A stretch of DNA of 64,000 nt from Amphiura filiformis (lineage: Eukaryota; Echinodermata; Ophiuroidea; Amphilepidida; Amphiuridae): the NCBI RefSeq assembly GCF_039555335.1, contig NW_027305501.1:310001-374000 (forward strand). Reading direction: 5' to 3'. The stretch's first letter is position 1. Every line of letters begins with the position of its first letter. Below are positions 8,917-61,455 of the stretch, in pieces. Both the position numbers and the translations under genes were made by a program. The notes beneath the pieces are model-generated. The model ran no database searches, was not told where the DNA came from, and saw nothing but the letters and a program-made list of their open reading frames with translations.

Positions 8917-10330
8917 TCATCATCATCATCATCATCAGTCGGCTGCGGAGCAGGCGACTACAAGCTTTCTCCAACTAATGCGATCTTGGGCAAGCGAAAC
9001 AATTTTGTTTCCCTTCAGTATCTCCCAGGAGGTGCTGGACATACTGTAAGTACAGTGTGCGCGGCCGTCCCGGTTTCCTCTTCCCATGTGGTGGTATATA
9101 AAGTGCATATTCTTTCACAGGCTGGCCATCTTCAAGACGCAGTGTATGGCCGAGAAATTTGAGTTGATGAATCTTGACTCTGGCAACCAGTGGAGTGGTG
9201 TTGGTCAGGTTGTAGATGGTTTCATTTGGAAGCCGATCCACACGCTTGATGTTTAACATGACTCTGTAGCAAGATGTTGCAAATGCATTTATCTTGTTTT
9301 CCATGTCCTTGTAATTACCCATGACTCGCACCCGTACAGAAAGACAGTAACACACGTTGTCTGAAACAGCTTGATTTTTGTTTCGATTTGCAGGGACGGG
9401 CTTCTCCAAAGGCGTTCCAGTTTCCAGAAAGCAGCCCAGGCTAGTGCTTTTCTTCTTTTTAGGTCTCCAACACTAGAGCCCATCTTGGAACCCAAATACT
9501 TGAAGTCTGTGACATGGTTGATGGTACTACCATAGACTTCAAGTACTGGTTGGGCGTTACAGTTTGCAGTCATATATTCTGTCTTAGGTGCGCTGATGAC
9601 AAGGCCTAGATCTGCTGCTGCAGTTGCAGTCCTAGTAAGCTGCGACTGGGCCCGGTCTATGGAAGATTCCAGCAGGGCAATATCATCAGCAAAATCCAGG
9701 TCATTTAGCATCTTGGCAGGATACCTGCTTGACCGACGTGGGTAGGTAACAATTCCAGAGTCAATTCCAGAAGTTGATTTCATCAGAAGGTAGTCTACCA
9801 GGATAATGAACAGGAATTGTGCCAACACATCACCCTGAAGCACTCCAGTTGTTACTTGGAAAGGCTCTGAGATACTGCCATCTACCATAACGGCACTATT
9901 GGAGTCTTTGTAGAGCACCTGGATGGCATTGACCACAACCTTTAGTATTCCATAATGCCGCAGCACTGAAAACATGACGGACCTGTTGATGGAGTCGAAG
10001 GCTTTTTTGAAGTCCACAAAAGTGACTGTTAAGGGAAGTTGGTACTCCTTGAAGCCTTCCATGATCCGCCTCAAAATGTGTATTTGCTGAGCACAGCTGC
10101 GACCCGATCTAAAGCCAGCCTGGTTGCTTCTCAGTAAAAGATCAATGTGGGGTCGGATCCTGTTCAGAAGGATCTTGTTGTACACTTTTGCGGCAATGGA
10201 CATAAGCGAAATACCACGGTAGTTTGTCATGAGAGAGAGAAAAATTACAGTGTGAAATTTGCTCAGTCTCTGCCAAAATGTGATCGTACGAGCAATCTCA
10301 TTCCCCCTACAAGGCGTTCTATGCATGGCA
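8917..10330 (-). pseudogene. 5'-truncated non-LTR retrotransposon (reverse transcriptase)
   Basis: A 345-residue frame (10,326-9,289) holds an RT core: NYRGISLMSIAAKVYNK, the finger motif QAGFRSGRSCAQQI, the catalytic strand FVDFKKAFDSI, GVLQGDVLAQFLF, and FADDIALL as the A/C-box carboxylate motif. A second frame (9,409-8,975) continues with the thumb and C-terminal segment (LGHTLRLEDGQP, GKRKPGRPR), so one frameshift near 9,290-9,400 breaks the gene. The element ends at 8,917-8,936 in a GATGAT-type microsatellite tail, as in several LINE clades. Endonuclease and 5' parts are absent. The clade is unresolved. Confidence 0.85.
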
Positions 10331-10501
10331 GAGAATTGCGCAATTCAAATTCCATCACTCGTTTACCTTGTAGAACTGAGCGGTTCAGAAAGAGTCCAAT
10401 TCCACACTTCATCAACTTACTTACAGCAATAATGTGTGATTTGCATAAAGAATAGATTCCTATTTAAATGTGTGTTTTCACTGATCACATTATCCTCTGA
10501 A

Positions 10502-45884: not shown

Positions 45885-46625
45885 TCCGCTAGAGCGGGAA
45901 GAAACATCATCTCAACAACCTTGTGTAATCAGAAACTTAATTAACACCTTTCTCGCTAGAGTGGGAAGAAACAAGATCTTAACAATCCGATGTAATCAGA
46001 AACATTCCACCTTTCTCCGGCAAGAGCGGGAAAAAACAAGATCTTTTCAATCCGATGTAATCAGAAACATTCCACCTTTCTCCCGCTAGAGCGGGAAGAA
46101 ACAAACGTCTCAACAATCCGGTGTAATCAGAAACCTACCGTTTTTCTCCGGCTAGAGCGGGAAGAAACAACGTCTCAGCAATCCGGTGTAATCAGAAACC
46201 TACCGTCTTTTTACCGGCTAGAGCGGGAAGAAACAATGTCTCAGCAATCCGGTGTAATCAGAAACCTACCACCTTTCTCCGGCTAGGGCGGGTAGAAACA
46301 ACATCTCAGCAGTCCGTTGTAATTAGAAACCTACCGTCTTTTTCCGGCTAGAGCGGGAAGAAACAGCATCTCAGCAGTCCGTTGTAATTAGAATCCTACT
46401 GCCTTTCTCCGGCATCGGATATCTATCACACCTCACCTACTGTCTTCCGGCGTTCGTTCCCACCACTTGAAGCCAACATCAAACTTTGTGAACCGAGGAG
46501 AGAATTTCCCCGGCTAGAGCGGAAAGAAACAACATCACAAAATCCGTTGCAATCAGAAACCTAACACCTTTCTCCGGCTAGAGGGGAAAGACACAACATC
46601 TCAGCAATCCGGTGTAATCAGAAAC
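45885..46625. repeat. minisatellite, unit about 65 bp, roughly 10 copies
   Basis: GGCTAGAGCGGGAAGAAACA followed by ATCTCAGCAATCCGGTGTAA and TCAGAAACC repeats at 45,888, 45,955, 46,018, 46,085, 46,150, 46,216, 46,283, 46,347, 46,503 and 46,575. A longer block starting GGCATCGGATATCTA interrupts it at 46,412-46,500 and also occurs just before the array (45,830-45,880), so a higher-order unit was duplicated. It lies in the probable first intron or 5' flank of the receptor gene. Confidence 0.9.
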
Positions 46626-46884
46626 TTCTGTACACTCACTATTGATAAGCCATGATGTAATTGATACCTCTGTTGAAACAGTTGGACTATTTTGCTTCTG
46701 TCCAGGTTTATGTGCCAAAGGTTAGAACATGTAGTAAGCATCAAACACCAAGTTTTAAATTGGCAGCACATTCAAAAATAAATTTAAAATGGCAAATTTG
46801 AGCATATTCCGAATCAACCCTTTTTGTATTCTTGTTCCCTTATCTTCTTGAATCTGGTGTTTCATGTCATTACTGAATTGCAAG

Positions 46885-47784
46885 TTGTTCCTCTCTGGGA
46901 TTCTCCTCACCGGTGCACACTCGCCAGGGATAAACGACAAACAATTGATGAAACCACGTTCACTTTCAATGGAGATTCAGCCCGAACTTGCAGCTTGCAA
47001 ATAACATCATCAGAAGGAACCGGGGTTTTGTTGCGGATGCTTCAAGGAATGCCTCGTGATTCATTTTGTACGTGGACAACCAAGGGATCTTTTGAACTGT
47101 CAGAAAAGATATGTGGTCATTGCAGCAAACGAATCCTGTTCAACTTTATTTCCCCATAGTGAACTCCAGCTAAATCTGCATGGTAATGCCAGAGTCCTTA
47201 TCAATAACATACCAATAAACCAGTCTCTGTCTTTGTGCTCAGAAAGTGATGATGAAAAACAACAGGTTATTTCCGGAGAAGTCACAAAGCATTGTGATAG
47301 ATATGAATTCAATCACACTATTTTTTGTCGGCAGTCCTCTGAATATACGTGTTCCGTTGACTTTCCATCGGATTGCAATGCTACTATTGGTAACAGATAC
47401 GCAGAATTCACGTGTCACAACCCTCAGATTAGTCACACGGCTTTGGTAATTTATCCAGACGGTATCACCACATTAGACCTGTCAGAACAAACTATAGTGG
47501 AGGTCTCCCAAAATGCTTTCATCAGTCTGCCACGTCTGGAGAAGATTGATATCAGATCGAATAAATTATCTAGACTACATTCCCTGGCGTTTACGGGTTT
47601 AAAATACTTATCATATCTAAATTTAAACGAAAACCAATTGGTCACATTGAATGCCTTTTTATTCAAACATTTGATCACATTGAATATTTTGTCCCTCCAA
47701 GTGAATGAGTTACATACATTACAGCCGGGATTGTTCAAGGGGTTGATCAATCTTGAAAAGTTGGACCTCTATAAAATCAAATAA
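46885..47784 (+). CDS. N-terminal part of the LRR 7TM receptor (CUB-like plus first LRRs), frame-shifted
   Basis: One frame reads VPLWDSPHRC, DETTFTFNGDSARTCSLQ and TSSEGTGVLLRMLQG, like the first half of a CUB domain. The reading then passes to the +1 frame at about 47,040-47,150 (NCQKRYVVIAANESC, LQLNLHGNARVLINN), a Cys-rich linker (TCSVDFPSDCNATIG) and about four LRRs (ITTLDLSEQTIVEV, LEKIDIRSNKLSRL). That frame stops at 47,782-47,784, where a run of five A in later repeats has only four (CTCTATAAAATCAAATAA), and the main frame resumes. So two shifts of opposite sign separate this part from the 1,767-residue frame. They could be assembly errors or real inactivating changes. Confidence 0.6.
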
Positions 47785-47801
47785 TTTCATTAGATGAGGA
47801 A

Positions 47802-50800
47802 TTGTTCAATGAAACGCGTAAGCTGACTGCACTGTATTTAGGTGACAACAATCTGACTGTTTTACAGAAAGGGTTGTTCAACGGGTTGACAAAACTTGAA
47901 AGGTTGACTCTCTTTAAAAATCAAATAATTTCATTAGATGAGGAGTTGTTCAATGAAACTCGTAAGCTGACTTTACTGAATTTGGGTAACAACAACCTGA
48001 CCGTTCTACCGAAAGGGTTGTTCAAACGTTTGACAAACCTTGATTATTTGTATCTCGATGCAAATCAAATCATTTCATTAGATGGCGATTTGTTCAATGA
48101 AACTCGTAAGTTGAGTGACCTGCATTTAGATGGCAACGACCTGACCGTTCTACCGAAAGGGTTGTTCAAACGTTTAACAAACCTTGAATATTTGTATCTC
48201 GCTGCAAATCAAATCATTTCATTAGATGGCGATTTATTCATTGAAACGCGTGAGCTGATTTTACTGAATCTGTTTGACAACAAATTGACCGTTTTACCGA
48301 AAGGGTTGTTCAAAGGTTTGATAAACCTTGAAATGTTGTACCTCTATGAAAATCAAATCATTTCATTAGATGCGGAGTTGTTCAATGAAACTCGTAAGCT
48401 GACTATATTGGACTTGGATGGCAACAACCTGACCGTTCTACCGAAAGGGTTGTTCAAACGTTTAACAAACCTTAAACAGTTGTATCTCGCTGCAAATCAA
48501 ATCATTTCATTAGATGGAGATTTGTTCAATAGAACGCGTAAGCTGACTTTACTGGATCTGGACGACAACAACTTGACCGTTTTACCGAAAGGGTTGTTCA
48601 AAGGGTTGGTAAACCTGAAAACGTTGTACCTCATTGAAAATAAAATAATTTCATTAGATGCGGAGTTGTTCAATGACACTCGTAAGCTGACTTCACTGGG
48701 TTTTCAAGGCAGCAACCTGCCCGTTCTTCCAAAAGGGTTGTTCAAACGTTTGACAAACCTTGAACAATTGATTCTCGCTTCAAATCAAATTATTTCATTA
48801 GACGGAGATTTATTCAATAGAACACATGAGCTAATTTTCCTGTTTCTGCTTGACAACAAATTGACCGTTTTACCAAAAAGGTTGTTCAAAGGTTTGATAA
48901 ACCTTGAATATTTGTACCTCTATGAAAATCAAATCATTTCATTAGATGCGGAGTTGTTCAATGAAACTCGTAAGCTGACTGTACTACAGTTATATGGCAA
49001 TAACTTGACCGTTCTACCGAAAGGGTTGTTCAAACGTTTAACAAACCTTAAACAGTTGTATCTCGATGCAAATCAAATCATTTCATTAGATGGAGATTTA
49101 TTCAATGGAATGCATGAGCTGACTTTACTGCGTCTGCACGACAACAACTTGACCGTTTTACCGAAAGGGTTGTTCAAAGGATTGGTAAGCCTTGCAACGT
49201 TGTACCTCTACAAAAATCGAATAATTTCATTAGAATTTGAGTTGTTCAATGAAACTCGTAAGCTGTCTGAACTGTATTTAGGCGACAACAATCTGACTGT
49301 TTTACCTAAAGGGTTGTTCAAAGGGTTGACAAAACTTGAAAAGTTGCACCTTTTTGGAAATCAAATAATTTCATTACATGCGGAGCTGTTCAATGAAACT
49401 CGTAAGTTGAATGACCTGCATTTAGATGGCAACAACCTGACCGTTCTACCGAAAGGGTTGTTCAAACGTTTAACAAACCTTGAACAGTTGTATCTCGCTT
49501 CAAATCAAATCATTTCATTAGACGGAGATTTATTTAATAGAACGCGGGAGCTGACTTTACTGTCTCTGTTTGACAACAAATTGACCGTTTTACCGAAAGG
49601 GTCGTTCAAAGGTTTGATAAAGTTGAAAACTTTGTACCTCTTTGAAAATCAAATCATTTCATTAGATGGAGATTTGTTCAGTAGAATGCGTAAACTGACT
49701 GAACTGGAACTTAGTAACAACAACCTGGCCGTTTTACCAAGAGGGTTGCTCAATGGTGTGATGAACCTAGAAGTGTTGCACCTCTATGAAAATCAAATAA
49801 TTTCCTTAGATGGAGATTTGTTCAGTAGAATGCGTAAACTGACTCATCTGGAACTTAGTAACAACAACCTGACCGTTTTACCAAAAGGTTTGCTCAATGG
49901 TGTGATGAACCTAGAAGAGTTGCACCTCTTTGGAAATCAAATAGTTTCATTACAGGAAAATTTGTTCAATGAAACGAGTAAGCTCAATGTCCTGCTTCTG
50001 CATAACAACAACTTGACCATTTTACCAAAAGGGTTGTTAAATGGTTTGATAAACCTTGAACTGTTGTACCTCTATAGAAATAAAATCACTTCATTAGACG
50101 GAAATTTGTTCAATGAAACGAGTAAACTGACTATCCTGCGTCTGTATAACAACAGCCTGACCGTTTTATCGAAAGGGTTGTTCAAAGGTTTGATAAACCT
50201 TAGAGCAGTGTCCCTTTCTGGAAATCAAATAATTTCATTAGATGCGGAGTTGTTCAATGAAACTAGTAAGCTGACTCACTTGACTCTGTCTGACAACAAC
50301 CTGACCGTTTTACCGAAAAGGTTGTTCAATGGTTTGACTAAACTTGAAGTTTTGTACCTCAATGGAAGTCAAATAATTGCTATTGATGCGGAGTTGTTCA
50401 ATGAAACTAGTAAGTTGACTGCCCTGTTGCTTAATAACAACAATCTGACCATATTACCAAAAGGGTTGTTCAATGGTTTGATAAACCTAGACGAGTTGCA
50501 CCTCTATAGTAATAAAATCACTTCATTAGATGGAGATTTGTTCAATGAAACAAGTAAGCTGACTACCCTGTATCTGTTAAACAACAGCCTGACCGTTTTA
50601 CCTAAAGGGTTGTTCAAAGGTTTGATAAACCTCGCAGCATTGTCCCTCTCTGGAAATCAAGTAATTTCATTAGATGCGGAGTTGTTCAATGACACTAGTA
50701 AGCTGACTGACGTCAGTCTTGGTGACAACAACCTGACCGTTTTACCGAAAGGGTTGTTCAAAAGTATGACAAAACTTGAAGAGTTGTACCTCTATGAAAA

Positions 50801-53105
50801 TGAAATAATTTCATTAGATGATGATTTGTTCAATACAACGCGTAAGCTGACTATTCTGTCTGTGTCTGCCAACAACTTGACCCTTTTACCGAAAGGGTTG
50901 TTAACTGGTTTGATAAACCTTAAAGTGTTGGACTTCTCTTACAATCGTATCATTTCATTAGATGCTGATTTGTTCAATAGAACGCGTAAGCTTACTAGCC
51001 TGTCTATGGCATTCAACAACCTGACCGTTTTACCAAAAGGGTTGTTGAATGGTTTGATAAACCTTAAGATGTTGGACCTCATTGCAAATCAAATCATTTC
51101 ATTAGATGGAGATTTGTTCGATGCAGCTAAAATGTTGGTTTTCCTTGCACTGACGCACAACAATATATCAGCTATTCCAAAAGGGCTTTTTAAAGAGCTA
51201 ATAAACCTTGAGAGACTAGATATTAGCATAAATCAAATCATTTCATTGGATGGAGATTTGTTCAATGCCACTACTAAGCTGACTAAACTTATCATAGCTG
51301 TGAACAAATTGAAACATCTTCCTAAGCAATTGTTTTGGGGACTTCATAGCCTGAATATTTTAGACATCGGTAAAAATGAATTGATATCAGTAGATAATAA
51401 ATTGTTTCAAGATTTGTCTAACTTACATTTTTTGTCCTTATCAGGTAATAAATTTGTGAAAATAGCACCTAGTTTAGTTTCGAAGCTTGTTAATTTAAAC
51501 ACTCTAGGTTGCGCAAACAACTCATTGACTGATTTAAATCACAAAATATTTAAGCGATTGAAACACTTGCAATATTTGTTGTTGCAAAACAATCAGCTGC
51601 AGGTCTTGCATTTCCTAATATTCAAAAATACAATAAACCTGCGTCATCTGGATTTGTCTGGTAACCAGCTTACTGATATTCCAAATATTACCTATTTAAA
51701 GCAACTTGATTTTATTGACTTACGAGATAACAGACTGACTATGATAGATAAGTATACATTTATTGACCTACCAAAGCAGACAGAAGTTAGTGTAAGCCAA
51801 ACTGAAATTTGTGAATGCTATGTACCAAGTGATAATTGTACAGCTTTAGAGGAGAGATCACCGTATTTGACATGCGACAGGTTATTGTCTGATAAGGCAT
51901 TGATGGGCATGATGTGGGTTATTGGTGTGAACGCCCTAGCTGGAAATATTTTTGTTTTAAGCAGGAAAAAAACAAAAGACGAAAAAGGTAAAGTTCAAAC
52001 CATCCTGCTTACCAATCTGGCGCTGTCTGATTTACTCATGGGCATGTATATGCTAGGTATCGCATCCGCTGATATTTATTTTGGTGAACATTTTCCTATG
52101 CGTGCTGAGTCCTGGAGAACGGGTGTCACGTGCAGAATTGCTGGCGCAATGGCAATACTATCCAGTGAAGCTTCTGTTTTCTTTGTGACATTGATAAGCA
52201 TTGACAGATTCATAAACATTCGATTTCCTTACTCTCATCGAAAGTTGAGAAAAAAGTCATCAACTTACGTAGTTTTCTTTCTTTGGCTGCTTTCTCTGGC
52301 ACTAGGCATTATTCCAACTGTTTTATCCGGAAAAAATTATAGATTTTACGAGAACTCTCACGTGTGCATAGGACTTCCTCTGGCTAAATTGGAAAGGTTT
52401 AACAAGACAGTATCATTCACTTGGATAGATTCTCATAATGACACTTCCTATCAGAAGTTTTTTGTCGATTCTAAATCTCTCGGCCATGTTGCTGGTTTGT
52501 ATTATGCGTCGGCACTATTTCTAGGTCTTAATGGCATCTGCTGCATTGTTATACTGTTGTGTTATGTAGAGATTGTGCGATCTGTCAAGAAGTCATCAAA
52601 ACAAGCAGGACGCGAGTTAGAGTTGAAACAACAGATAAAAATGACTGCCAAAGTCTCTGCCATCATTCTTACGGATTTCTTTTGTTGGGCACCGATTATT
52701 GTGCTTGGGATATTGGTACAAAGTGGGGTAATGACTCTGTCCCCTTCAGTATTCGCATGGTCTGTTGCAGTCATTTTACCTATTAATTCTGCCATTAACC
52801 CGTATTTGTACACAATTGCCGCACTTATCAGCAATTATCGCAAACAACGGAAAGCTGCTCAACTTGAAAACAAAATAGATCCACCTCAACAATGGGATCA
52901 GAAGCCTTTACGACAAATACATCCGGATGAGAATTTACAACAAAAGGCACATCCTTTGTCCATAAACCAAAGACAGCTGTGTAGTCCTCAAGACATAGAG
53001 CTACAAACTATATCTAGTGGTCAACAAAAGCATGATAGTGTTCAACATCATTCAGAAGACGATGTGTTGCCTAATGAATCTAAAGAAGCCGGGGCAAACA
53101 TGTGA
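47802..53105 (+). CDS. giant LRR-containing G-protein-coupled receptor (GRL101/relaxin-receptor-like)
   Basis: The 1,767-residue frame has three parts. Residues 1-1200 are 25 tandem 48-residue units, each two LRRs, on the pattern LFNETRKLTxLxLxxNNLTVL then PKGLFKGLxNLExLYLxxNQ and IISLD. Residues 1201-1345 are about five divergent LRRs. A Cys-containing cap (CECYVPSDNC, LTCD) leads to a class A 7TM domain from about 1366 (TM1 MMWVIGVNALAGNIFVL; TM2 NLALSDLLMGMYML; SIDRFINI in place of DRY near 1465; TM6 FFCWAPIIVLGIL; NPYLY near 1664) and a Gln-rich tail. FNET and NNLT give two N-glycosylation sequons per unit. By analogy with RXFP/GRL101 the LRRs bind an extracellular ligand and the 7TM couples to G protein at the plasma membrane. 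Everything lies in one exon. The first Met is internal to an LRR; true translation must begin upstream, but the frame is broken there. Confidence 0.9.
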   Translation: MFNETRKLTALYLGDNNLTVLQKGLFNGLTKLERLTLFKNQIISLDEELFNETRKLTLLNLGNNNLTVLPKGLFKRLTNLDYLYLDANQIISLDGDLFNETRKLSDLHLDGNDLTVLPKGLFKRLTNLEYLYLAANQIISLDGDLFIETRELILLNLFDNKLTVLPKGLFKGLINLEMLYLYENQIISLDAELFNETRKLTILDLDGNNLTVLPKGLFKRLTNLKQLYLAANQIISLDGDLFNRTRKLTLLDLDDNNLTVLPKGLFKGLVNLKTLYLIENKIISLDAELFNDTRKLTSLGFQGSNLPVLPKGLFKRLTNLEQLILASNQIISLDGDLFNRTHELIFLFLLDNKLTVLPKRLFKGLINLEYLYLYENQIISLDAELFNETRKLTVLQLYGNNLTVLPKGLFKRLTNLKQLYLDANQIISLDGDLFNGMHELTLLRLHDNNLTVLPKGLFKGLVSLATLYLYKNRIISLEFELFNETRKLSELYLGDNNLTVLPKGLFKGLTKLEKLHLFGNQIISLHAELFNETRKLNDLHLDGNNLTVLPKGLFKRLTNLEQLYLASNQIISLDGDLFNRTRELTLLSLFDNKLTVLPKGSFKGLIKLKTLYLFENQIISLDGDLFSRMRKLTELELSNNNLAVLPRGLLNGVMNLEVLHLYENQIISLDGDLFSRMRKLTHLELSNNNLTVLPKGLLNGVMNLEELHLFGNQIVSLQENLFNETSKLNVLLLHNNNLTILPKGLLNGLINLELLYLYRNKITSLDGNLFNETSKLTILRLYNNSLTVLSKGLFKGLINLRAVSLSGNQIISLDAELFNETSKLTHLTLSDNNLTVLPKRLFNGLTKLEVLYLNGSQIIAIDAELFNETSKLTALLLNNNNLTILPKGLFNGLINLDELHLYSNKITSLDGDLFNETSKLTTLYLLNNSLTVLPKGLFKGLINLAALSLSGNQVISLDAELFNDTSKLTDVSLGDNNLTVLPKGLFKSMTKLEELYLYENEIISLDDDLFNTTRKLTILSVSANNLTLLPKGLLTGLINLKVLDFSYNRIISLDADLFNRTRKLTSLSMAFNNLTVLPKGLLNGLINLKMLDLIANQIISLDGDLFDAAKMLVFLALTHNNISAIPKGLFKELINLERLDISINQIISLDGDLFNATTKLTKLIIAVNKLKHLPKQLFWGLHSLNILDIGKNELISVDNKLFQDLSNLHFLSLSGNKFVKIAPSLVSKLVNLNTLGCANNSLTDLNHKIFKRLKHLQYLLLQNNQLQVLHFLIFKNTINLRHLDLSGNQLTDIPNITYLKQLDFIDLRDNRLTMIDKYTFIDLPKQTEVSVSQTEICECYVPSDNCTALEERSPYLTCDRLLSDKALMGMMWVIGVNALAGNIFVLSRKKTKDEKGKVQTILLTNLALSDLLMGMYMLGIASADIYFGEHFPMRAESWRTGVTCRIAGAMAILSSEASVFFVTLISIDRFINIRFPYSHRKLRKKSSTYVVFFLWLLSLALGIIPTVLSGKNYRFYENSHVCIGLPLAKLERFNKTVSFTWIDSHNDTSYQKFFVDSKSLGHVAGLYYASALFLGLNGICCIVILLCYVEIVRSVKKSSKQAGRELELKQQIKMTAKVSAIILTDFFCWAPIIVLGILVQSGVMTLSPSVFAWSVAVILPINSAINPYLYTIAALISNYRKQRKAAQLENKIDPPQQWDQKPLRQIHPDENLQQKAHPLSINQRQLCSPQDIELQTISSGQQKHDSVQHHSEDDVLPNESKEAGANM

Positions 53106-53367
53106 AATCTGTGATAGCAGATTGTTATCAAGAACGATGCATCATGTGAAGCTATTTTATCGTACTCTATGAAATATGTATGCCTTACTTTAATAGTAGT
53201 TAGTTGTAGTAATATATCGTACCACCAAGACTAGCTGGTCATATTATCTCTCTCTTGGTCATTGAATGAACATGTAGTAGTTGATCTCAGCTATGGCACG
53301 ATTTAGGGCAAGGTTGAAAAAGTGAGGAAATTGAACATCACAAAAAACATCACCGGATACGCCCTCT
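53106..53367 (+). other. 3' flank of the receptor gene
   Basis: Presumed 3' UTR after the TGA at 53,103-53,105. No canonical AATAAA is seen before the tandem repeat. No other gene. Confidence 0.4.
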
Positions 53368-53783
53368 GTTTTATTTCATCACTCACAAAAAATTGATTTC
53401 TTATGTATTACTTTGTTTCGTGATGAAAATCGTGATGTTTTATTTCATCACGCTCTAAAACAAACGATTTCCTATGTATTACTTTGTTTTGTGATGAAAA
53501 TCGTGATGTTTTATTTCATCAAGCTTTAAAACAAATTGATTTCTTTTGTATTACTTTGTTTTGTGATGAAAATCGTGATGTTTTATTTCATCACGTTCTA
53601 AAACATATGATTTCTTATGTATTACTTTGTTTCGTGATGAAAATCGTGATGTTTTATTTCATCACTCTCGAAAAATTGATTTCTTATGTATTACTTTGTT
53701 TCGCGATGAAAATCGTGATGTTTTAATTCATTAAGCTTTAAATCAAATGATTCCTTATGCACTACTTTGTTTTGTGATGAAAT
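53368..53783. repeat. tandem repeat, unit about 71 bp, 6 copies
   Basis: GATTTCTTATGTATTACTTT and GTTTCGTGATGAAAATCGTG, then ATGTTTTATTTCATCACG repeat near 53,395, 53,466, 53,538, 53,609, 53,679 and 53,749. The word TTTCATCAC pairs with GTGATGAAA, so each unit can form a hairpin. Confidence 0.9.
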
Positions 53784-56135: not shown

Positions 56136-56137
56136 GG

Positions 56138-56735
56138 GAGTAGAGACTGTTCTGGTTGGCTTGGTTTGTCATGTTTTCGACACCACAGAATGTATATACT
56201 TGTATAAACATTTCTGTAAATTTGAAATCATGACAAATTATCCGGCTGATGATCGGTATACCCAATGATCGTAAGTGAGGGTATTCCGTGAAACTTTAAG
56301 TAACGGTTGCCTTGCCAGAGGTCTATACTTTGAATTTGTTTCTATAGCTCACCTGTAATGGGTTTGAGCACTCTAAATTCCAAAGTTAGTCACTTGTAAA
56401 GTAAACTTGTTATAATACACCCCCACTATTTTTAGTGGTTGAGCACTCTCGACTACTTTTGGAGTAGAGACTGTTCTGGTTGGCTTGGTTTGTCATGTTT
56501 TCGACACCACAGAATGTATATACTTGTATAAACATTTCTGTAAATTTGAAATCATGACAAATTATCCGGCTGATGATCGGTATACCCAATGATCGTAAGT
56601 GAGGGTATTCCGTGAAACTTTAAGTAACGGTTGCCTTGCCAGAGGTCTGTACTTTGAATTTGTTTCTATAGCTCACCTGTAATGGGTTTGAGCACTCTAA
56701 ATTCCAAAGTTAGTCACTTGTAAATTAAACTTGTT
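56138..56735. repeat. tandem duplication, period 323 bp
   Basis: 56,138-56,415 and 56,461-56,735 are almost identical (GGAGTAGAGACTGTTCTGG to CACTTGTAAAKTAAACTTG), separated by 45 bases of unrelated sequence. The second copy runs directly into the signal-exon segment copy 3, so the duplication lies in that gene's presumed first intron. Confidence 0.9.
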
Positions 56736-56739
56736 ATAA

Positions 56740-59263: not shown

Positions 59264-61455
59264 GTGTAGTCAAAAAAATCAATTCCGTGACCATTCTCTG
59301 GCTAGTAAGGTTTTACGATTGATTTGACTTCTATGGACTATTTAGAAAAAAATTAGCCCCCATGTCCCTCGCGAAAATCCCGGCATTTTTCGCTAGAGGG
59401 CAAAATCCAAAATGGCCGCCGCCACCATTTTGAAAAATTAAGTTTTGAACCAGAGCACCTATAATCATGTAGAAAGACACTTTTTCGGGTATGTCGAGCA
59501 CAAGGATTCCGATTCTGACATTAATTTGACATTACGGCATCATTTTCACCCATAAATCCAAGATGGTGGCCGGCACCATCTTGAAAAATTTCGTTCTAAA
59601 ATCGTGTACAAAGACACTTTTTTGGATAAATCGACCACAAGGATATCTGACATTACTTTGACATTACGTCCTCATTTTTACCCAGAAATCCAAGATGGCG
59701 GCCGCTGGTGCCATCTTGAGAAAAATAAGTTTTGAACCAGAGTACCTAAAATCGTGTACAAAGACACTTTTTCAGGTAGGTCGACCCCAAGAAATCCGAA
59801 TCTGACATTAATTTGACGTTATAACATAAATTTTGCCCAGAAATCCAAGGTGGCCCCCAATTGGTAGAGCGTAAATGTAATTCTTGAGTGGGAGCAGGAG
59901 CATAAGTGTGTCATTTCCGCCTTATTTGGGGTTTATGTCCCTTATCTGGGGGGTTAAACTGCTTTATCTTGAGTTTACATTACTTTTCTAGGGATAAGGC
60001 GCCTTATCTGTGGTTTAGACAGCCTTATCCGGGGTTTACTTTCCTTACCGGTGGCTAAGATGCCTTCAAACCTTAGCATATCGCAGTCGAAACCCAGATA
60101 AGGCATCTAAACCCCAGATAATGCGCCGGAACCCAGATAAGGGACGTAGACCCCAGATAAAGCAGTCTAAACCCCAAATAAGGCGCCTTAACTCTAGATA
60201 AGGGTCGTAAACCCCAGATAAGGGTCGTAAACCCCAGATAAGGCACCTAAACCCAAGGTAAGGCGCCCTAACCCCAGATAAGAGACGTAAACTCGGATAT
60301 GGCAGTCTAAACCCCAGATAAGGCGCCGTAACCCCCGATAAGGGACGTAGACCTCAGATAAAGCAGTCCCAACCCCAAATAAGGCGCCTTAACCCTAAAT
60401 AAGGAACATAAACCTAGGATAAGAGAAGTACACCCCAAATAGGCAGTCTAAATCCCAGATAAGACGCTTTAACCCCAGATAAGGCATCTAAACCCCAGAT
60501 AAGGCGCCTTAACTTCAGATGGGGGACGTAAACCTAGGATAACACAGTCTAAGCCCCAGATAAGGCATCTAAACCCCATATAAGGCGCCTTAACCCCAGC
60601 TAAGAGACGTAAGCCCAGATAAAGCAGTCTAACCCCCAGATTAGGCGCCTTCCATCAGATAAGGAACGTAAACTCCAGATAAGGCATCTAAACCCCAGAT
60701 AAGGGACGTTAACCCCAGATAAAGCTGAAATGATATACCTAATGCTTCCATATCCATTAATATTTCATAATTAGCCAAAAAAGGGAGTTAATTCGTGATC
60801 CTAGGTGCTCCCACTCAAAAATTACATTTACGCGCTACCAAATGGGGGCCATCTTGGATTTCTGGGCAAAAATTATGTTATAACGTCAAATTAATGTCAG
60901 ATTCGGATTTCTTGGGGTCGACTTACCCGAAAAAGTGTCTTTGTACACGATTTTAGGTACTCTGGTTCAAAACTTATTTTTTCAAAATGGCACCGGCGGC
61001 CGCCATCTTGGATTTCTGGGTAAAAATGAGGTCGTAATGTCAAAGTAATGTCAGATTTGAAATCCTTGTGGTCGATTTATCCAAAAAAGTGTCTTTTTGT
61101 ACACGATTTTAGGTCCTCTGATTCAAAACTAAATTTTTCAAGATGGTGCCGGCCACCATCTTAGATTTCTGGGTAAAAATGATGCCGCAATGTCAAACTA
61201 ATGTCAGAATCGGAATCCTTGTGCTCGACATACCCGAAAAAGTATCTTTCTACATGATTATAGGTGCTCTGGTTCAAAACTTAATTTTTCAAAATGGTGG
61301 CGGCGGCCATTTTGGATTTTGGCCTCTAGCGAAAAATGCCGGGATTTTCGCGAGGACATGGGGCTAATTTTTTCTAAATAGTCCATAGAAGTCAAATCAA
61401 TCGTCAAACCTTACTAGCCAGAGAATGGTCACGGAATTGAGGTTTTTGACTACAC
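59264..61455. mobile_element. 2.2 kb foldback with 600-bp arms and a GATAAGG core
   Basis: GTGTAGTCAAAA at the left (TA just before) and its complement at the right (TA just after) bound two inverted arms (to about 59,880 and from about 60,840). Each arm holds three diverged sub-repeats of about 140 bp with AAGATGGCGGCCG and GACACTTTTTCGGGTA words. The centre is the minisatellite at 59,925-60,730. No ORF. It lies in the intron between the TM3 and TM4 exons of the channel gene. Confidence 0.85.
59925..60730. repeat. GATAAGG minisatellite with an orientation switch
   Basis: About 30 units of 20-22 bp on the pattern AAACCCCAGATAAGGCGCCT / AACCCCAGATAAGGGACGTA fill 60,075-60,725. The first part (59,925-60,060) holds the same unit in the opposite orientation (CCTTATCTGGGG). 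Linkers alternate between GCGCCTTA, GGACGTA, GCATCTA and GCAGTCTA. Confidence 0.9.

Follow-up and report, generated by a model that had tools for sequence, protein, structure and literature searches.

In the excerpts of the literature on which we draw, LRR recognition systems are somatic (the variable lymphocyte receptors, VLRs, of jawless vertebrates), intracellular (plant NLRs, and fungal repeat NLRs without LRRs) or based on whole-gene differences (the GRL101 cluster of a snail). The LGR family (RXFP1/2, the glycoprotein-hormone receptors, LGR4-6 and GRL101) combines an LRR ectodomain, a cysteine-containing hinge and a class A seven-transmembrane (7TM) domain, and is alike in these respects to the locus described here, which lies in a window of 64,000 nucleotides of genomic DNA from the ophiuroid Amphiura filiformis. 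According to the available parts of PMC9545775 and PMC4079206, LGRs carry about 7-9 LRRs (types A and C) or 14-18 (type B), against about 60 in the present gene, and the largest counts are 26 LRRs in a sponge receptor and 34 in LGR-15 of Trichoplax. We found no LGR with more than 34 LRRs, or with an LRR array that is tandemly repeated at the DNA level, in those parts of the open-licence literature that were accessible. Unlike the family, the array reported here is recognisable as a DNA-level tandem repeat. As to the LDLa module, which marks type C receptors in the accessible text of PMC11863921, no LDLa-like pattern was found in the six frames of the window, where the 5' exons of the gene are not delimited.

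Among animals, variation in receptors of this architecture has been described for the snail Biomphalaria, where the GRL101-like LRR-GPCRs of the schistosome-resistance-associated SudRes2 region have varied extracellular domains and some of the genes occur in one haplotype only (PMC12297450, in part). In that account 10 of the 12 GRL101-like receptors carry a C-type lectin and LDLa and the variation is by whole genes, whereas here it lies between units within one gene, and neither a C-type lectin nor LDLa was found. The same excerpts place the validated variants in a neighbouring non-GRL101 gene and leave the role of GRL101 itself unproven; by analogy, the cluster may be the nearest animal lead to a recognition role, if an indirect one. 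A chemosensory role suggested by expression for GRL101 of a starfish (PMC6267866, in part) is not decisive for the present receptor.

The nearest systems that would work alike are, again by analogy, the fungal HNWD/NLR arrays and the highly variable plant NLRs. The fungal arrays (het-d, het-e; WD, ANK and TPR repeats) share with the present one a conserved framework and positively selected binding-face residues (PMC1805685 and PMC4986451, in part), the selection here being seen in a one-tree codon model and in hand-picked pairs of units. They are, however, intracellular, with repeats up to 100% identical and a proven length polymorphism, whereas the product of the present gene is a predicted GPCR with a mean protein identity between units of 62-64% (92% in the best pair), in comparison with the cut-off of >85% internal repeat identity given in the available part of PMC4986451. 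Highly variable plant NLRs have their variable residues on the concave LRR surface, as here, but are intracellular and vary among alleles rather than among the units of one gene copy (PMC8226289, in part). VLRs are built of 24-residue LRRs with a concave binding surface (PMC3308329, in part), as proposed here, and are assembled somatically from flanking cassettes, whereas the present array joins its 7TM domain continuously in genomic DNA. No LRR cassette was found elsewhere in the window. PRDM9 is a nuclear DNA-binding protein, unlike the present receptor. Its zinc-finger array is, like the present one, a repeat array, and in the excerpted text of PMC5120217 no other human gene has a higher dN/dS between the repeats of one protein.

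Layout of the receptor gene

The main open reading frame (ORF), on the + strand at 47775-53105, is uninterrupted over 1776 codons and in Pfam matches LRR_8 (3.4e-227) and 7tm_1 (3.4e-28) together. Codons 1-1200 consist of 25 units of exactly 48 residues apiece (47775-51374), each made of two 24-residue LRRs, just as a preliminary description of this DNA had it; the 144-bp spacing is exact, with no indel. Tandem Repeats Finder reports the repeat at 47731-51123 (period 144, 23.6 copies, 77% matches, score 3182), and 300-nt reference copies show 24 recurrences at a spacing of 144. The LRRs total about 60, namely 55 in register in the main ORF, 4 upstream in another frame and 1, counted by inspection, that straddles a break between the two frames. 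For the main ORF this count derives from 56 motif matches, one of which was off register and was dropped; 50 begin inside the array. The gene comprises the following features.

47160-47774 (+): N-terminal stretch with a cysteine-containing segment, then four LRRs and the beginning of a fifth, in a frame unlike that of the main ORF (ORF 47005-47784; Pfam LRR_8 1.8e-17; four LRR motif matches; acceptor-like site immediately 5' of 47160)
47775-47784 (+): frame break, where two ORFs overlap in different frames and the 24-residue LRR period is unbroken (ORFs, comparison of A-runs)
47775-51374 (+): coding array of 25 x 144 bp with 50 LRR starts, units 24-25 degenerate (ORF, Tandem Repeats Finder, spacing, motif counts)
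48145-49269 (+): block similarity at a lag of 4 units, 48145-48693 against 48721-49269, 88.7% over 549 bp
49647-49934 (+): adjacent units 14 and 15, 93% identical (identity table; bootstrap 100 in both trees)
49962-50813 (+): block similarity at a lag of 3 units, 49962-50381 against 50394-50813, 86.4% over 420 bp
51375-51800 (+): five more LRRs, judged by their start motifs, non-homogenised and running into the hinge
51801-51905 (+), limits approximate: hinge with cysteines C1346, C1348, C1355 and C1367 (ORF residues)
51906-52860 (+), limits approximate: class A seven-transmembrane domain (Pfam, PDB sequence matches)
52861-53105 (+): cytoplasmic tail and stop codon (ORF)

The 25-unit array is free of cysteine. 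It has 39 N-glycosylation sequons, of which unit position 12 accounts for 20 and position 26 for 16 (36 of the 39 together), and from these two positions the glycans would align along fixed edges of the solenoid.

Matches of the 7TM part to PDB sequences are strongest for RXFP1 (1.3e-31), followed by TSHR (1.7e-28), FSHR and LHCGR; the LGRs are succeeded by an unnamed class A chain (8w1z, 4.5e-24) and by other class A receptors from 5e-14. LGRs make up nine of the ten best distinct PDB sequences, the tenth being 8w1z, and the match that follows is 10 orders of magnitude weaker. In a comparison by halves, RXFP1 is the top match overall (4.2e-32), with TSHR ahead on the first half of the 7TM domain (80.8 vs 68.6 bits). 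The ectodomain of LRRs stands directly before a class A 7TM domain that is closest to those of other LGRs, and the hinge between the last LRR and TM1 holds four cysteines; the LRR number departs from the 7-9 or so of type C LGRs. These matches uphold the earlier assignment to the G-protein-coupled receptors and support an LGR-type receptor whose 7TM domain belongs with those of the relaxin and glycoprotein-hormone receptors.

A search of the window, with 46601-53200 masked, for a second receptor copy or LRR cassette gave only two chance-level matches in tblastn (E 0.55 and 0.81) and none in blastn at E up to 1. Pattern scans of public sequences, two covering viral contigs and a third covering bacterial/archaeal genomes, returned 5, 8 and 23 matches, none of which was confirmed as a relative. 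Matches to NCBIfam bacterial LRR proteins are far under their cut-offs, and Pfam matches on the array such as T4_Cef and NMD_SH3, although they pass their cut-offs, are regarded as spurious matches to the repeat.

Divergence and rearrangement of the units

The term 'nearly homogeneous', which had been applied to the repeat, overstates its uniformity. Mean pairwise identity is 74% at the nucleotide level (range 55-93%) and 62% at the protein level over all 25 units, and 77% and 64%, respectively, over units 1-23; units 24 and 25 are degenerate, with a best match to any other unit of 65% nucleotide identity. Identity between two units reaches at most 93% of nucleotides and 92% of residues. Synonymous difference between units 1-23 has a median of 31% and a minimum of 7.5%. 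Even the closest units are separated by a synonymous difference of 7.5-10%, and no exact stretch shared in register is longer than 69 bp, so the array is not a young hypervariable minisatellite. It is neither young nor nearly homogeneous, and the number of units was probably not altered by collapse in the assembly.

Similarities in register of at least 200 bp number 12, at unit lags 1-7, 9 and 10, the strongest being those at lag 4 and, in the second half of the array, at lag 3. Such multi-unit similarities indicate that blocks of units were duplicated or exchanged in the past. The account of higher-order structure in the preliminary description holds in a restricted form. The alternation of two unit types in units 2-13 is followed by 9 of 11 adjacent pairs, but with an exact p of 0.067; the 288-bp period is detectable in units 2-10 only (lag-2 identity p 0.018, lag 4 p 0.014, tested against shuffled unit order in a range that was picked after the type labels had been seen), and not across units 2-13 (p 0.21).

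Substitution at the concave positions

Variation among the units is mainly located, as had been proposed, at the LxLxx positions of the concave face. The eight concave positions of the unit (19, 21, 23, 24 and 43, 45, 47, 48) have the eight highest entropies of the 48 in units 1-24, with a mean of 2.82 bits against 0.72 at the other 40, a value reached by 0 of 100,000 random sets of eight positions; the eight-residue concave sets of the 25 units are all different. In an AlphaFold model of units 11-22 (mean pLDDT 92.3, pTM 0.87; input a 6-row alignment of window translations), strands occupy unit positions 19-23 and 43-47 in every repeat, the last one being shortened by the end of the model, and structural matches of this model include LRRTM2, LGR4, Toll and TLR3. 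A single-sequence model of the last LRRs, hinge and 7TM domain had a pLDDT of 38.6 and was left unused. The LRR consensus occupies the non-concave positions, so concave variability is expected in any LRR protein. Such enrichment being uninformative by itself, substitution rates were compared.

Over ten disjoint pairs of units, hand-picked from the identity table (20 of the 25 units, omitting 2, 7, 13, 24 and 25, and including a few pairs, e.g. 16-19 and 22-23, whose members are not each other's closest unit), concave positions have a pN/pS of 1.94, convex-exposed positions 0.83 and framework positions 0.18. The concave value derives from 60.75 nonsynonymous changes per 194.8 sites and 7.25 synonymous changes per 45.2 sites, so that few synonymous changes underlie the contrast. 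Set against the pooled synonymous rate (55/321), concave pN (61/195 sites, rounded) is again in excess (Fisher one-sided p 0.00017). Neutral simulation yielded a median pN of 0.15-0.17; none of the 400 runs made for each of three transition biases attained the observed concave value of 0.312, and 0.5-2.25% of runs attained the concave ratio of 1.94. Synonymous rates in the ten pairs vary by class (0.229 framework, 0.109 convex, 0.161 concave), and relative to the framework synonymous rate concave pN is 1.4-fold higher.

All pairs of units 1-23 together give a concave ratio of 1.46 (unit bootstrap 1.22-1.78), compared with 0.44 for the other 40 positions. Taken separately, units 1-13 give 1.36 and units 14-23 give 1.89; little excess (1.11) is visible in the second LRR of the unit within units 1-13. 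A codon model of units 1-23, with shared branch lengths and a single tree assumed although the units may have exchanged sequence, gives omega of 4.10 for concave, 0.74 for convex-exposed and 0.24 for framework positions, and for the concave class an omega of 1 is rejected (2dlnL 82.7, or 83.7 when the concave codons are left out of tree building). The concave beta-sheet positions thus show more amino-acid change than expected under neutrality, and the framework is constrained; outside the framework constraint is weak, the convex-exposed positions being near neutral. This comparison of concave with framework rates had been named beforehand in the preliminary description, for which an absence of excess at exposed positions was one of two results that were to count as contrary evidence, and its outcome is the opposite. 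Repeats of one protein generally outpace orthologues in divergence, and commonly change quickly once duplicated, so that part of the concave signal may be an old and now fixed burst, although most comparisons in the study concerned gave values below 1 (PMC5120217, in part).

Explanations for the array

We consider it fairly probable, at about 0.6, that the gene encodes an LGR-type receptor whose ectodomain was enlarged to about 60 LRRs by duplication of 144-bp units and selected for new binding surfaces. The two-LRR unit would have been duplicated repeatedly, at times alone and at times as part of a block, within a coding stretch that has no interruption. As its length is a multiple of three and each copy contributes precisely two turns, units can be added to the array or removed from it with frame and fold intact. 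By analogy with other LRR receptors the concave face would bind ligands, and the biology of LRR receptors suggests that binding would be signalled by way of the hinge to the 7TM domain, and from there to a G protein. Selection would have favoured new binding surfaces, which a receptor for recognition (in immunity, allorecognition or chemosensation) requires, and an excess of change on the putative binding face is what selection for the recognition of new or diverse targets should produce. The rapidly evolving recognition system envisaged earlier is partly supported by the concave excess (pN/pS 1.94, omega 4.1); the array is not young and includes no pair more than 93% identical.

A more ambitious version of this reading, which we put forward tentatively and with some doubt, is that of a germline-diversifying recognition GPCR, in which 144-bp two-LRR cassettes would be duplicated, lost and exchanged inside a single coding stretch, so rebuilding the concave ligand face, and individuals would differ in binding surface while using one G-protein pathway. 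Such a gene would be an animal equivalent, acting outside the cell, of the HNWD genes for nonself recognition in fungi. If true, a GPCR with a long in-frame cassette array and a diversifying binding face would represent a further route to recognition diversity in animals. The array also bears on the role of the orphan GRL101-like receptors of invertebrates.

Alternatively, the gene might be an ordinary fixed LGR with a long ectodomain and one ligand, whose units diverged once at the concave face after duplication and are now conserved. The lack of any visible very recent duplication, given lowest synonymous differences between units of 7.5-10%, agrees with such a history, as do the fast phase and subsequent conservation predicted by general repeat biology (PMC5120217, in part) and the records of LGRs with 26 and 34 LRRs. 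We nevertheless hold it to be rather unlikely: the concave pN/pS exceeds 1 in both halves of the array and the codon-model omega is 4.1, no concave residue set recurs in the 25 units, and about 60 LRRs are more than the LGR counts in the available parts of PMC4079206 and PMC9545775.

Another explanation is raised by the frame break ahead of the array, which is absent from the preliminary description. The LRR ORF at 47005-47784 stops where the main ORF starts in a different frame, the LRR period being continuous, and the A-run at the break has one base fewer than its counterparts in units 2 and 11. An intron across the break was set aside on inspection, as the 24-residue period continues over it. 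As assembled, with its one-base break, this copy is either a recent null allele or the product of an assembly error, and because of the break its function is only putative. Further upstream, the stretch 46788-47160 includes an unassigned cysteine-containing segment. The frame may change a second time there, near 47155, but an acceptor-like site just 5' of 47160 (one of eight such sites listed, with an exon start at 47160) could also mark an intron boundary. The frame-joined N-terminal stretch appeared CUB-like by eye, but Pfam to E 10 gave no CUB match, and no known domain was recognised by Pfam across the suspected frame change.

The one-base break at 47775-47784, the suspected change near 47155 and a start codon in frame with the upstream LRRs that is not settled by eye would all be consistent with a pseudogene or a dying receptor copy. 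This explanation appears improbable, as 1776 codons are open where the ORF without selection would be expected to acquire about 13 stops per 0.05 substitutions per site, and as framework constraint persists (0.18 in the ten pairs). A real loss of the gene would have to be recent, because the main ORF holds no stops.

Neutral concerted evolution alone, by which a coding minisatellite was homogenised by conversion and its concave sites are simply unconstrained, matches the strict 144-bp spacing, the block similarities and the near neutrality of the convex-exposed positions (0.83), but is improbable with a concave pN that exceeds the simulated neutral value in every one of 1200 runs and is 3.4 times the convex-exposed pN.

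Other repeats and a probable mobile element occur in the window besides the receptor gene favoured above as an enlarged LGR. A reverse transcriptase ORF at 9292-10344 on the - strand (Pfam RVT_1 3.3e-28) probably belongs to a LINE-type element; the ORF at 8978-9472 that overlaps it has no Pfam match. Minisatellites flank the receptor gene at 45888-46414 (65 bp x 8) and 53367-53782 (71 bp x 5.9). A 324-bp unit present in 1.9 copies with 99% matches at 56137-56739 represents a recent duplication, and a 20-bp repeat of 31.5 copies, which also has a 181-bp period, extends over 60093-60723.
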